Source: Acidobacteriota bacterium (GTDB lineage: Bacteria > Acidobacteriota > Terriglobia > Acidiferrales > UBA7541). Taken from it: 64,000 nt of DNA. Below the pieces are notes generated by a model that had not been told where the DNA came from, ran no database searches, and was given only the letters and a program-made list of their open reading frames with translations. Shown here piece by piece: positions 2,871-7,053 of this stretch. Within the stretch, counting starts at the first letter, position 1, and each line of letters starts with the position of its first letter. A program made the translations under genes and the position numbers. The stretch lies in assembly GCA_021788095.1 (NCBI GenBank), contig JAJYLB010000005.1, forward strand, positions 1 through 64,000. The letters are read 5' to 3'.

Positions 2871-3332
2871 GTGAAGCGCGCTCTGCTCCTGGTTTCCGCG
2901 CTGTGGGTGATGCTTGCCGTTCCGCTTTCCGCCGCGGCTTCCCTGGGCGGCGACCGGAACTCGGTCGAAGCCGACCGCGTGTTTCTGAAGGCGACGCTCG
3001 AGCAAACGGCGAAAAGCAACTACTCCGTCGAGCGTATCCAGGTTCCCAATGGAGTCGTGGTCCGCGAGTATGTTTCTCCGGCGGGAAATGTTTTCGCCGT
3101 GGCTTGGCAAGGGCCCACCCGGCCCGATCTTCGCGAGATTTTGGGCGCCTATTTCCCGGTTTTTCTCAAAGCCGTTCCCCCGAAGATGAACTTCCGGCTG
3201 CTGCGCGGGCCGGTGCGCATTCAGGCGAATGGGCTGGTGGTGGAGATGGCCGGACACACGCGGTGGCTCATCGGCCGCGCCTACCTCATCCCGATGCTGC
3301 CCGCGGGCGTTAGCGCGAGGGAAATCCAATGA
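2871..3332 (+). CDS. Exported DUF2844-family protein, copy 1
   Basis: A 153-residue protein with an N-terminal signal peptide (MKRALLLVSALWVMLAVPLSAAA) and a mature start at SLGG. The mature part matches DUF2844, a family of unknown function: LGG..NSVEADR near the start, then PNGVVVREYVS, W.GPTRPDLRE and GRAYL..MLPAGV. The GTG start at 2871 has a GAGGA site 6 nt upstream. Its stop overlaps the DUF3443 gene by ATGA, so the two are translationally coupled. It should act in the periplasm or outside the cell. The second copy at 5031 is roughly three-quarters identical by eye. Confidence 0.9.
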   Translation: MKRALLLVSALWVMLAVPLSAAASLGGDRNSVEADRVFLKATLEQTAKSNYSVERIQVPNGVVVREYVSPAGNVFAVAWQGPTRPDLREILGAYFPVFLKAVPPKMNFRLLRGPVRIQANGLVVEMAGHTRWLIGRAYLIPMLPAGVSAREIQ

Positions 3333-4597
3333 CCGGGGCGAGGCAAGCGCTCGCTTTCGCGGCGGTTGCGGTTGCCCTTTCGCTCGCCGGCTGCGGCGGG
3401 CAAGACTCCCGCTCGATCATCGGGCCTCCGCCTTCTTCCACGGCAAACGTGCAGGCCATCCAGGTGAACACCGGCCCCACCGCACAGGCGGGCGACTATC
3501 CGTACACCAACGGAGCGTTCACCAGCGTCACCCTGTGCGTGCCCGGCACCACCACTTGCCAGACGATCGGCGGGATTCTCGTCGATACGGGTTCGGAGGG
3601 CTTGCGCGTGCTCAACTCGGCGTTGACGCTCTCCCTACCCCAGCAAACCCAGGGTGGCAATCCCGTGGGTGAGTGCTTCCCCTTCGTTGGCGCCGTGACT
3701 TGGGGCCCGGTCGAGTCAGCCGACGTCGAGATGGCTGGCGAAAAAGCCAGCGGCGTTCCCATCCAAGTGATCGGAGGTTCGGGGTCTTTTTCCGCCGTGC
3801 CCTCGCCTTCCTGCACGGACATGGGCGCGCCCGAACAGGATTTGTACGATTTGGGCGCGAACGGCATTTTGGGAGTCGGGCCCTTCGCGCAGGATTGCGG
3901 CTCGGGGTGCATGACGAATGGTTCGAGCAATCTCGGGTGGTATTACGCCTGCCCGTCCTCCGGCTGCCAGCAAACTACCGAGAACCTTGCGAATCAGGTG
4001 GTGAACCCGGTGGCGGATTTCTCCACCGACAACAACGGCGTGGTGATCGTGTTGCCCGCGATCACCTCCTCTCCTCCGGTCGCCACCACGGTGAACGGCT
4101 CCCTGATCTTCGGTATCGGAACGCAGTCCAACAACAAGCTGGGCAGCGCCACCGTCTTCCAAGCCGATCCGAACACGGGGAACATCTCGACCGTATTCAA
4201 TAACGTCACGTACAACGGCGTGAGCTTCCTCGATAGCGGCTCGGGCGCCAACTTCTTCGCGGATCCGACGACGGCGAATATTCCGGCCTGCTCCAACAGC
4301 AACACCAGCGGATTGTATTGCCCGTCAAACGACCAAGGCTTTTCCGCGACGAATTTTGGCGTTAGCGGCACTTCCGGCACCTTCACGTTTACCGTCGAGA
4401 ACGCCGACAACCTGTTTAGCCAGTATTCCACCTCGGCCGCTTTTGGCGATCTTGGTGGTCCGTCCACGACGACGGCCGGCCCCAGCAACTACGACTATTT
4501 CGATTGGGGCCTGCCGTTCTTCTACGGCCGCACGGTCTTTACGGCCATCGAAGGGATTGGCACGCCCGCCGGTCCCGGCCCCTATTACGCCTACTGA
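3329..4597 (+). CDS. DUF3443-family lipoprotein with pepsin-like motifs, copy 1
   Basis: A 422-residue protein with a lipoprotein signal; the lipobox LAGC puts the lipidated Cys at residue 22. The body matches DUF3443 (function undescribed as far as I know). It has ILVDTGS around Asp86, ANGILGVG at 178-184, GSLIFG at 257-262, FLDSGS around Asp302 and WGLPFFYGR near the C-terminus. Their order and spacing resemble a two-lobed pepsin-type aspartic peptidase (DTG, DGILGL, a second DTG, LGD.F). This is an inference from motifs; the second site reads DSG rather than DTG. It overlaps the DUF2844 gene by 4 nt, so the products probably act together at the envelope. Confidence 0.9.
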   Translation: MTGARQALAFAAVAVALSLAGCGGQDSRSIIGPPPSSTANVQAIQVNTGPTAQAGDYPYTNGAFTSVTLCVPGTTTCQTIGGILVDTGSEGLRVLNSALTLSLPQQTQGGNPVGECFPFVGAVTWGPVESADVEMAGEKASGVPIQVIGGSGSFSAVPSPSCTDMGAPEQDLYDLGANGILGVGPFAQDCGSGCMTNGSSNLGWYYACPSSGCQQTTENLANQVVNPVADFSTDNNGVVIVLPAITSSPPVATTVNGSLIFGIGTQSNNKLGSATVFQADPNTGNISTVFNNVTYNGVSFLDSGSGANFFADPTTANIPACSNSNTSGLYCPSNDQGFSATNFGVSGTSGTFTFTVENADNLFSQYSTSAAFGDLGGPSTTTAGPSNYDYFDWGLPFFYGRTVFTAIEGIGTPAGPGPYYAY

Positions 4598-4598
4598 T

Positions 4599-4755
4599 CA
4601 TCGCCGACGAGCCGCCAGTGGCCCGGGCATTTCTGCCCGCGCGCTCGCCTCACGGACGCCACTGGCAAATGTGCCCGTACTGCGGTCGCCCTGCTCGCGC
4701 GCTTCGATGTGCGCGCCGAGGTTGCCCCCGGTGGCACCGGCGCGGGTGCCCCACC
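4599..4755 (-). pseudogene. Decayed copy of the HTH_34-type regulator
   Basis: On the minus strand this frame-shifted fragment encodes GATGGNLGAHIEAREQ in one frame and ends VGDDQ in another. The intact regulator at 6757-7053 has GATDGNLGAHIATLEQ and ends VGEDQ. The DNA after the first DUF3443 stop (TGATCATCGCCGACGA) also mirrors that after the second (TGATCCTCGCCGACGA). This shows that the duplicated unit included at least the 3' half of the regulator, which then decayed in this copy. Confidence 0.75.
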
Positions 4756-5030
4756 CGTAACTCCTACGGGTGGGGCCGGCTGAGCCACTTCTCCCGAGGA
4801 ATACCCGGGCGCAGCCGAACGCCCAGGGTGCCGCAACTTTCACAACCTCTCGCGGGGGTAGGCCCGCGCAGGCACGGGTTGCGAATGGCTGCGGCCCCAT
4901 TCCCGGCGACGCTCGTCAGTCTTCCCGATGCTCTCAGGGCCCTGTGTACCAGTTAGGCAATAGACACTATTTACTTCAGAGTTACCTACCCGCCTGCCGT
5001 TATCCTCTCGTTGAATCGACTGGAGTTGCC
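4756..5030. other. Intergenic region before the second DUF2844 gene
   Basis: No gene is visible. It holds a CCCCACCCGT/ACGGGTGGGG hairpin near 4748-4776, GC-rich sequence, and an AT-richer stretch at about 4950-5000 that probably carries the promoter of the second pair. An open frame runs into the DUF2844 gene from upstream, but homology and the signal peptide begin at 5031. Confidence 0.4.
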
Positions 5031-5489
5031 ATGATTCGAAGGGTTCTGACCTGGGCGCTAGGGACGATGCTCGCCCTGCCGCTTCCCGCGGCCGCTTCCC
5101 TGGGCGGCAACCTGAACTCGGTCGAAGCCGACCGCGCTTTTCTTCGCGGAACCCTCGAGCGCACGGCGGCGACCGGCTATTCCGTCCGGCAGATCAGGAT
5201 GCCGAACGGGGTGGTCGTGCGCGAGTACGTTTCCCTTGCCGGGAATGTGTTCGCGGTGTCTTGGCAAGGCCCCACGAGGCCCGATCTTCGCGAGCTTCTG
5301 GGACCCTATTTCGAGACCTACATCCAATCCATTCCCCCGAAGATGAAGTTCCGGCTGGTCCGAGGGCCGGTGCGCATCGAGGCGAATGGGCTGGTGGTGG
5401 AAATGGCCGGCCACGCCCGGTGGCTGATCGGGCGCGCCTACCTCACCACGATGCTGCCCGCAGGTGTTAGCGCGAGGGAAATCCAATGA
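5031..5489 (+). CDS. Exported DUF2844-family protein, copy 2
   Basis: A 152-residue paralogue of the gene at 2871. ATG at 5031 is chosen because it gives a proper signal peptide (MIRRVLTWALGTMLALPLPAAA) and aligns with copy 1. The mature part keeps SLGG, NSVEADR, MPNGVVVREYVS, W.GPTRPDLRE and the nearly unchanged C-terminus (GRAYL..MLPAGVSAREIQ). It overlaps the next gene by ATGA exactly as in copy 1. Sequence differs most in the signal peptide and around residues 40-55 and 95-105. The function is unknown; coupling suggests a partner, chaperone or inhibitor of the DUF3443 protein. Confidence 0.9.
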   Translation: MIRRVLTWALGTMLALPLPAAASLGGNLNSVEADRAFLRGTLERTAATGYSVRQIRMPNGVVVREYVSLAGNVFAVSWQGPTRPDLRELLGPYFETYIQSIPPKMKFRLVRGPVRIEANGLVVEMAGHARWLIGRAYLTTMLPAGVSAREIQ

Positions 5490-6763
5490 CGGGGGTCAGG
5501 CAGGCACTCGCTTTCGCGGCGGTGGCGGCCGCCCTCTCGCTCGCCGGCTGCGGCGGTGGCAGATCCACTTCGATCGTAGGACCTCCGCCTGCTGTGACTT
5601 CCCCAGCGAGCATGCAGGGGAACGTGCAGCCCATTCAAGTCAATACCGGCCCCACCGCGCAGGCGGGCGACTATGCGTACACCAACGGCGCGTTCACCAG
5701 CATTACCCTGTGCGCGCCGGGCACCGGCACTTGCCAGACGATCGGCGGCATTCTCGTCGATACGGGCTCGGTAGGACTCCGCGTGCTCTCGTCCACCTTG
5801 ACGATCTCCCTGCCCCAGCAGACGCAGGGTGGTAATGCAGTGGGCGAGTGCTATCCCTTTCCTGGCGCCGTCACGTGGGGTTCGGTGGAGACGGCCGATG
5901 TCGAGATGGCGGGAGAGAAAGCCGGCAGCGTGCCCATCGAAGTGATTGGAGGCACGGGATCCTTCTCCGCGGCGCCCCCTCCCTCCTGCACGGCTATGGG
6001 CACGCCGGAGCAGAACTTGTCCGAATTGCACGCGAACGGAATCTTGGGAATAGGATCGTTCGCGCAGGATTGCGGCCTGGGCTGCGCGGCGAGCGGGGCG
6101 AGCAACGTTGGTTATTACTATTCCTGCTCGTCGTCGGGCTGCCAGGCGACTCCCGAGGACCCCGCCGACCAGGTGGCGAACCCCGTGGCGGACTTCTCCA
6201 CCGACAATAACGGCGTAGCGATCGAACTGCCCGCGATCACCTCCTCTCCTCCCGTCGCCAGCGCGGTGAACGGTTCCCTGATCTTCGGGATTGGCACCGA
6301 GTCCAACAACCAACTGACCGGCGTCACCGTCTACGAAGCCGACCCCAACACGGCCAACATTTCCACCGTTTTCAAGGGCGTCTCCTACACCGGGGTCGCC
6401 TTTCTCGACAGCGGTTCGAGCGCGAATTTCATCGCCGATCCAACGACGACGAATATGCCGATCTGCAGCCGCTACATGGTCTACTGCCCGTCGGCGGCGG
6501 TGAATTTTTCGGCAACCAACGTCGGTGCTACGGGGACCTCCGGCAGCTTCACGTTTACCGTGGATAACGCTGATAACCTGCTTACCCAGGATGCGGGCAA
6601 TGCCGCCTTTGGCGATCTGGCGGGCCCGTCCACGACGACGGCCGGCCCCAGCAAGTACGACTTCTTCGATTGGGGCCTGCCGTTCTTCTACGGCCGCACG
6701 GTCTTTACCGCCATCGAAGGCCGGAGCACGCCCGCCGGCCCCGGCCCCTATTACGCCTACTGA
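5486..6763 (+). CDS. DUF3443-family lipoprotein with pepsin-like motifs, copy 2
   Basis: A 425-residue paralogue of the gene at 3329, with lipobox LAGC (Cys22). It retains the same putative catalytic pair: VDTGS at Asp92 and LDSGS at Asp308, plus ANGILGIG (183-190), GSLIFG and WGLPFFYGR. Six cysteines in the middle (for example CGLGC) may form disulfides. The linker after the lipobox is six residues longer than in copy 1. Both copies keep the motifs, so both are probably functional. Its 3' end overlaps the convergent regulator gene by 7 nt. Confidence 0.9.
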   Translation: MTGVRQALAFAAVAAALSLAGCGGGRSTSIVGPPPAVTSPASMQGNVQPIQVNTGPTAQAGDYAYTNGAFTSITLCAPGTGTCQTIGGILVDTGSVGLRVLSSTLTISLPQQTQGGNAVGECYPFPGAVTWGSVETADVEMAGEKAGSVPIEVIGGTGSFSAAPPPSCTAMGTPEQNLSELHANGILGIGSFAQDCGLGCAASGASNVGYYYSCSSSGCQATPEDPADQVANPVADFSTDNNGVAIELPAITSSPPVASAVNGSLIFGIGTESNNQLTGVTVYEADPNTANISTVFKGVSYTGVAFLDSGSSANFIADPTTTNMPICSRYMVYCPSAAVNFSATNVGATGTSGSFTFTVDNADNLLTQDAGNAAFGDLAGPSTTTAGPSKYDFFDWGLPFFYGRTVFTAIEGRSTPAGPGPYYAY

Positions 6764-7053
6764 TCCTCGCCGACGATCTCGCGCAGGAAGGCGAGGTAGC
6801 TCTCGAAGGCGCGCCGCCCGGCTTTGGTGAGCCGCACGCGGGTGCGCGGCTTTTTGCGCACGAACTCCTTTTCAACCTCGATATACGCCGCCTGCTCGAG
6901 CGTGGCGATATGGGCGCCGAGATTGCCGTCGGTAGCGCCGACGATCGCGCGGAGCCGCGTGAATTCCAGATACTCCCGCGGCGGCGGCGCCCGCAGCGCT
7001 GCCATGATTTTCAGCCGGATGGGTTGGTGGATGGCGGGGTCGGGCTGGTCCAT
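6757..7053 (-). CDS. Winged-helix transcriptional regulator (HTH_34 type)
   Basis: A 98-residue protein that is almost entirely one winged helix: IHQPIRLKIMAAL as helix 1, the recognition region TDGNLGAHIATLE, a basic wing (KKPRTRVRLT) and GRRAFESYLAFL at the end. This matches the PF13601-like regulators commonly encoded with a small membrane protein. It lies 3 nt downstream of the membrane-protein gene at 7057, so the two form an operon. A 12-bp palindrome in the operon promoter (7635-7646) is a plausible autoregulatory site. A broken copy lies at 4599-4755. Confidence 0.85.
   Translation of the reverse strand: MDQPDPAIHQPIRLKIMAALRAPPPREYLEFTRLRAIVGATDGNLGAHIATLEQAAYIEVEKEFVRKKPRTRVRLTKAGRRAFESYLAFLREIVGEDQ

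Follow-up and report, generated by a model that had tools for sequence, protein, structure and literature searches.

Two DUF2844-DUF3443 gene pairs at the locus

The analysed window, 64,000 nucleotides from an Acidobacteriota bacterium (GenBank assembly GCA_021788095.1, contig JAJYLB010000005.1), carries two genes of the DUF3443 family (PF11925), each directly preceded by a gene of the DUF2844 family (PF11005) that is absent from the first-pass annotation, made from the sequence (Table 1). The DUF3443 proteins are predicted to adopt the two-lobed fold of the pepsins. Both copies are full-profile members of PF11925, covering profile positions 2 or 3 to 367 of 367 with scores of 396 and 375 bits (cut-off 25), and the sequence of each contains a signal peptide and the lipobox LAGC, which bears out their earlier description as lipoproteins.

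Table 1. Coordinates of the two gene pairs and of the sites in the DUF3443 proteins
Feature	Coordinates	Strand	Remarks
DUF3443 copy 1	3329..4597	+	422 residues; PF11925 E=1.8e-118; exported lipoprotein with predicted two-lobed pepsin fold
DUF3443 copy 2	5486..6763	+	425 residues; PF11925 E=5e-112; about 75-77% identity to copy 1
Lipobox LAGC, copy 1	3383..3394	+	Residues 19-22; Cys22 predicted lipidation site, Gly at +2
First putative catalytic motif DTGS (Asp86), copy 1	3584..3595	+	Asp in 125/125 homologues
Flap-like region PFVGAVTWGP, copy 1	3680..3709	+	Residues 118-127; from profile alignment and conservation
N-lobe psi-loop strand ANGILGV, copy 1	3857..3877	+	Residues 177-183; model strand 158-162 (mature numbering); Gly182 in 125/125
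GSLIFGIG, copy 1	4097..4120	+	Residues 257-264; equivalent of pepsin GSVVLLGG by profile alignment and sequence
Second putative catalytic motif DSGS (Asp302), copy 1	4232..4243	+	Asp in 119/125 homologues
C-lobe psi-loop DWGLPFFYGR, copy 1	4502..4531	+	Residues 392-401; equivalent of pepsin ILGDVFIRQY; strand-helix-strand in the model; Gly394 in 125/125
First putative catalytic motif DTGS (Asp92), copy 2	5759..5770	+	From sequence
Second putative catalytic motif DSGS (Asp308), copy 2	6407..6418	+	From sequence
DUF2844 partner 1	2871..3332	+	153 residues, signal peptide; PF11005 E=2.5e-36; stop overlaps copy 1 start (ATGA)
DUF2844 partner 2	5025..5489	+	About 151-154 residues, ATG at 5031; PF11005 E=8.3e-37; stop overlaps copy 2 start (ATGA)

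The motifs behind the original comparison with pepsin lie where the first-pass annotation had put them, with DTGS at residue 86 in copy 1 and 92 in copy 2, ANGILG at 177 and 183, GSLIFGIG at 257 and 263, the Asp of LDSGS at 302 and 308, and WGLPFFYGR at 393 and 396. The two Asp residues are 216 positions apart in both copies versus 183 in pepsin, as had also been noted. The motif order is that of pepsin, and the markers of copy 1 and porcine pepsin run in parallel: first Asp (86 and 32, respectively), flap region (118 and 73), NGILG/DGILG (178 and 118), GSLIFG/GSVVLLGG (257 and 162), second Asp (302 and 215) and C-lobe psi-loop (392 and 300). The pepsin sequence used differs from PDB entry 3pep at 1 of 326 residues. 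The consensus Xaa-Xaa-Asp-(Thr/Ser)-Gly-(Ser/Thr/Ala), where Xaa is hydrophobic, occurs in each lobe (LVDTGS and FLDSGS in copy 1) and is near-invariant in the 125 homologues described below. The hydrophobic-hydrophobic-Gly motif of the psi-loop is represented in the N-lobe by ILG, which ends in the invariant Gly182; in the C-lobe the equally invariant Gly394 is preceded by Asp392-Trp393, so that only the residue next to the Gly is hydrophobic.

This pairing of motifs is more than chance. When 811 other open reading frames of at least 280 residues from the fetched loci were screened for two hydrophobic-hydrophobic-D[ST]G[STA] motifs separated by 150-260 residues, only four records contained the pair. 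These represent two genes, each present twice in overlapping loci, and both are genuine bacterial pepsins of PF00026.

Predicted fold and relation to the pepsins

The AlphaFold2 model of copy 1, built from a 60-sequence alignment and no templates, is of high confidence (predicted local distance difference test score, pLDDT, 92.4; predicted template modelling score, pTM, 0.91). A Foldseek search of the PDB with this model returned 427 matches at E<=0.001. The best 50 of these 427 are all family A1 pepsins, with no retropepsin among them, and their alignments of 410-453 columns cover both lobes. Endothiapepsin has the lowest E value in the PDB listing (1.9e-11), and identity to eukaryotic pepsins in the structural alignment is 12-17%. 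In the model, strand-DTGS-strand and strand-Gly-helix-strand elements are placed as the psi-loops of pepsin, the Gly394 region forming a strand-helix-strand. The first-pass annotation had proposed a pepsin-type two-lobed fold and had named a fold lacking two psi-loop lobes as the chief result that would speak against it; the confident prediction has both lobes. A comparison with a viral fold library was uninformative, the retropepsin models in it matching weakly (E>=0.018).

Profile-profile comparison by hhalign points in the same direction. The DUF3443 profile aligns with the acidobacterial A1 protein P0005 (PF00026 E=1.5e-22) at P=7.5e-4 (hhalign P values to A1 reach from 7.5e-4 to 1.8e-3), against a best P of 0.036 among 120 decoy proteins. 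The first and second Asp motifs, the flap region and the GILG and GSLIFG strands all line up in register with P0005. With porcine pepsin alone (P=0.073) or endothiapepsin alone (P=0.026) the signal is not clearly above the decoys. The two acidobacterial A1 proteins have the C-terminal sequence ILGLPLMN..(F/Y)T(I/V)FD in common, and this is similar to the DUF3443 signature WGLPFFYGRTVF. We had considered Trp125 as the equivalent of flap Tyr75 and dropped it, as the profile alignment places Phe119 there; Trp125-Gly126 aligns further on, opposite a Thr-Gly of the bacterial A1 proteins.

Several observations weigh against a pepsin-fold peptidase. By sequence similarity in HMMER the family does not fall within A1: none of 60 DUF3443 members matched PF00026 at E<=1 in a Pfam-A search, and neither phmmer nor profile searches of the PDB matched any chain. 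TM-scores (template modelling scores) to pepsins in Foldseek are just 0.45-0.60, with root mean square deviations of 6.6-9.5 A; therefore, loops or lobe packing differ from those of pepsin. An invariant Arg93 stands where pepsin has Trp39, by alignment Phe takes the place of the flap Tyr in most members, and the ten conserved cysteines do not, by our reading, fit the pepsin disulphide positions. Given the negative HMMER result and the hhalign signal, we therefore claim the fold and the clan, not membership of A1: the predicted structure places DUF3443 in the pepsin fold and peptidase clan AA, where it is probably a family of its own rather than part of A1.

Genuine PF00026 pepsin homologues are encoded in two acidobacterial genomes, at L055:1360-2583 (plus strand) and L139:1465-3012 (minus strand); a signal peptide is not obvious in the former. 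Few members of the class have such a pepsin (1 of 299 genomes), and these hosts lie outside the groups named in a 2009 survey of bacterial pepsins.

Conservation, distribution and the DUF2844 partner

Homologues were collected by PF11925 searches of whole genomes and by an alignment-query scan of named genomes. The former found the family in 63 of 399 genomes of the same class, in 4 of 396 genomes drawn from the phylum and in none of 14 control genomes. The latter yielded at least 575 confirmed candidates, the best 80 of which were used; a single-protein query against the named genomes found nothing, while the alignment query did find homologues. The named hosts are mostly Acidobacteriota (Terriglobia, Acidobacteriaceae, Candidatus Acidiferrales, Sulfotelmatobacter) together with Burkholderiales, and many come from peat, bog or soil. 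In three acidobacterial loci (L037, L038 and L041) the DUF3443 domain ends very long frames of 843-1210 codons, where upstream fused domains are possible. Our literature search found no paper mentioning DUF3443 or DUF2844, the paper on bacterial pepsins (PMC2761423) does not name DUF3443, and the PF11925 and PF11005 family records give no function.

The conservation set comprised 125 distinct sequences; some near-identical pairs may persist because the collections overlap, and percentages are thus approximate. Asp86 is found in all 125 and Asp302 in 119, while the Thr/Ser that follows is present in 125 after the first Asp and in 123 after the second. Other aspartates are mostly variable, the conserved exceptions being Asp189, Asp234, Asp392 and, to a lesser degree, Asp132. 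Arg93, Trp125, Gly126, Gly182, Gly257, Gly262 and Gly394 are invariant, ten cysteines are each conserved in 119-125 of the sequences, and a lipobox-like sequence occurs in 92. The flap column, as inferred from the alignment, holds Phe in 116 sequences (Phe119 in copy 1), Tyr in 8 and Leu in 1.

Of 118 distinct cases with sufficient flanking sequence, 102 have a DUF2844 gene immediately upstream on the same strand (121 of 137 before duplicate removal), and several of the remaining sixteen have it slightly further upstream. No other neighbour is generally conserved near DUF3443, and synteny beyond this gene is lineage-specific. The DUF2844 protein was modelled with a pLDDT of 87.8, from an alignment without two rows from annotated plasmid records. 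Its Foldseek search of the PDB gave nothing significant (best E=0.033); among the weak structural matches, at E values of 0.03-0.23, are SAV1118 of Staphylococcus, periplasmic proteins of the DUF2874 type and a BLIP-like protein. Inhibitors are among the proteins with PepSY-like and BLIP-like folds. Because of the operon and these inhibitor-type folds among the weak matches, which together form the basis of the proposal, our guess is that DUF2844 acts as a chaperone or inhibitor of DUF3443.

The six homologues without Asp302 have Ala, Asn or Glu in its place. Five belong to one acidobacterial genus, several of them in multi-copy stretches, and the sixth is at L045; the loci in the shared genus are L036, L039, L040 and L051. 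The tree requires at least three separate losses. A DUF2844 gene is missing from the position immediately upstream of all six, as would be expected if its product serves the active enzyme. As a statistical association (Fisher p=2.4e-6), this link fails correction for relatedness, as there are only three independent pairs. From their sequences, these paralogues are likely pseudopeptidases.

The two pairs in the window are a lineage-specific tandem duplication, since each DUF3443 copy is more similar to the other than to any further homologue (75-77% protein identity, compared with about 60% for the next best). Both families are under purifying selection there, with dN 0.154, dS 0.627 and dN/dS of about 0.25 (nonsynonymous and synonymous divergence) between the DUF3443 copies, and dN 0.176, dS 0.579 and dN/dS of about 0.30 between the DUF2844 copies. 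A 53-base stretch between the pairs (4690-4742) matches 6891-6943 at 77%, and the latter lies inside a minus-strand winged-helix (HTH_34) gene that follows copy 2; the duplication therefore probably took in this neighbour, which has since decayed behind copy 1. DUF3443 is absent from four other genomes of the window's genus, and a DUF2844-DUF3443 pair on a Paraburkholderia aromaticivorans plasmid (L137:7363-9104) adjoins a site-specific integrase; the plasmid pair and the absence from congeners suggest gain and loss, or transfer. Positions 1-1421 hold part of a minus-strand 23S ribosomal RNA gene, which continues beyond the start of the window.

Proposed function and comparison with known aspartic peptidases

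Taken together, these results make it likely that DUF3443 comprises cysteine-rich peptidases of the pepsin fold that are exported, in most cases lipid-anchored, and work with DUF2844. The first-pass annotation had left the choice between peptidase and pseudopeptidase; because both Asp residues are near-universally conserved, the sequences favour a peptidase, and most members, both window copies included, are probably active. In the proposed mechanism each lobe would supply one psi-loop aspartate, Asp86 and Asp302 in copy 1, and the two would jointly activate a water molecule to cut a peptide bond under the flap, with Phe119 standing in for pepsin Tyr75. An acid optimum, disulphides and the exact cell location are likewise inferred. 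DUF2844, exported, encoded just upstream and translationally coupled, would hold the active enzyme in check as chaperone or inhibitor. A more far-reaching proposal, which we regard as somewhat less likely than not, is that DUF3443 founds a new two-lobed family of clan AA, an exported branch of the pepsin fold in which the DUF2844 regulator replaces the built-in propeptide and copies without an adjacent regulator have repeatedly decayed to pseudopeptidases.

The altered equivalents of the flap Tyr and Trp39 could be accounted for if DUF3443 were a non-cutting binding or inhibitor protein that kept the pepsin fold for ligand binding, like the plant xylanase inhibitors, and the six Acidobacteriota paralogues that lost Asp302 in at least three events indicate that the fold can serve without catalysis. 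Known pseudo-pepsins, however, usually lose one of the catalytic Asp residues or a neighbouring Thr/Ser, while in DUF3443 Asp86 is invariant, Asp302 is 95% conserved and the neighbouring Thr/Ser are kept too, across two phyla; we regard a non-cutting role as unlikely for the family. Somewhat less probable still is an independent fusion of two retropepsin-like (A2) lobes without specific kinship to pepsin. It would fit the missing HMMER-level link to A1 and the spacing of 216 rather than 183, but the best 50 of the 427 Foldseek matches are all A1, viral retropepsin models match only weakly, and in the profile alignment the flap, GSLIFG and the order of elements between the Asp residues correspond to those of a bacterial A1 protein. 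That sequence searches alone miss the pepsin link might even suggest a different fold with motifs alike by convergence or chance; a template-free, high-confidence model with full-length pepsin matches at 1e-11 has already largely refuted this, and we give it almost no weight.

If DUF3443 proteins are pepsin-fold peptidases, two families without assigned function acquire a role and a partner that can both be tested, and the findings suggest that soil bacteria widely possess a so far unnamed family of enzymes that are exported and cut proteins. The survey of 2009 had just seven bacterial genomes with pepsin homologues, none of which carried a signal peptide, and on this basis discussed an ancient origin of the two-lobed pepsin against acquisition from eukaryotes (PMC2761423). 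DUF3443, at several hundred Acidobacteriota and Pseudomonadota loci (at least 575 confirmed), with the predicted fold and the motifs of pepsin but without an HMMER-level A1 signal, would broaden what bacteria contribute to this question.

By its predicted fold and its motifs, DUF3443 shares with bacterial pepsins such as shewasins A and D the two lobes, the two Asp-Thr/Ser-Gly motifs and the order in which these and the psi-loop Gly motifs follow one another. The known bacterial homologues lack signal peptides (PMC2761423, PMC4814920), and shewasin D accumulates in the cytoplasm (PMC4814920), whereas DUF3443 proteins have a signal peptide and usually a lipobox. Of the two groups, DUF3443 alone has ten conserved cysteines and a DUF2844 partner, and its flap residue, as aligned, differs from that of bacterial pepsins in being a non-Tyr aromatic in most members. 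Eukaryotic pepsins (endothiapepsin, porcine pepsin, BACE1) resemble DUF3443 in motif order and in the predicted fold over both lobes; DUF3443 differs from them in its longer inter-Asp spacing, in Arg93 for Trp39 and in having no propeptide within the protein. RloA, one of the Rlo enzymes, which are described as secreted (PMC12239564), and RC1339/APRc of Rickettsia (PMC4140852) are bacterial aspartic peptidases of clan AA, as DUF3443 would be by its fold, but they are of the single-lobed retropepsin type, whereas DUF3443 is predicted to be two-lobed.

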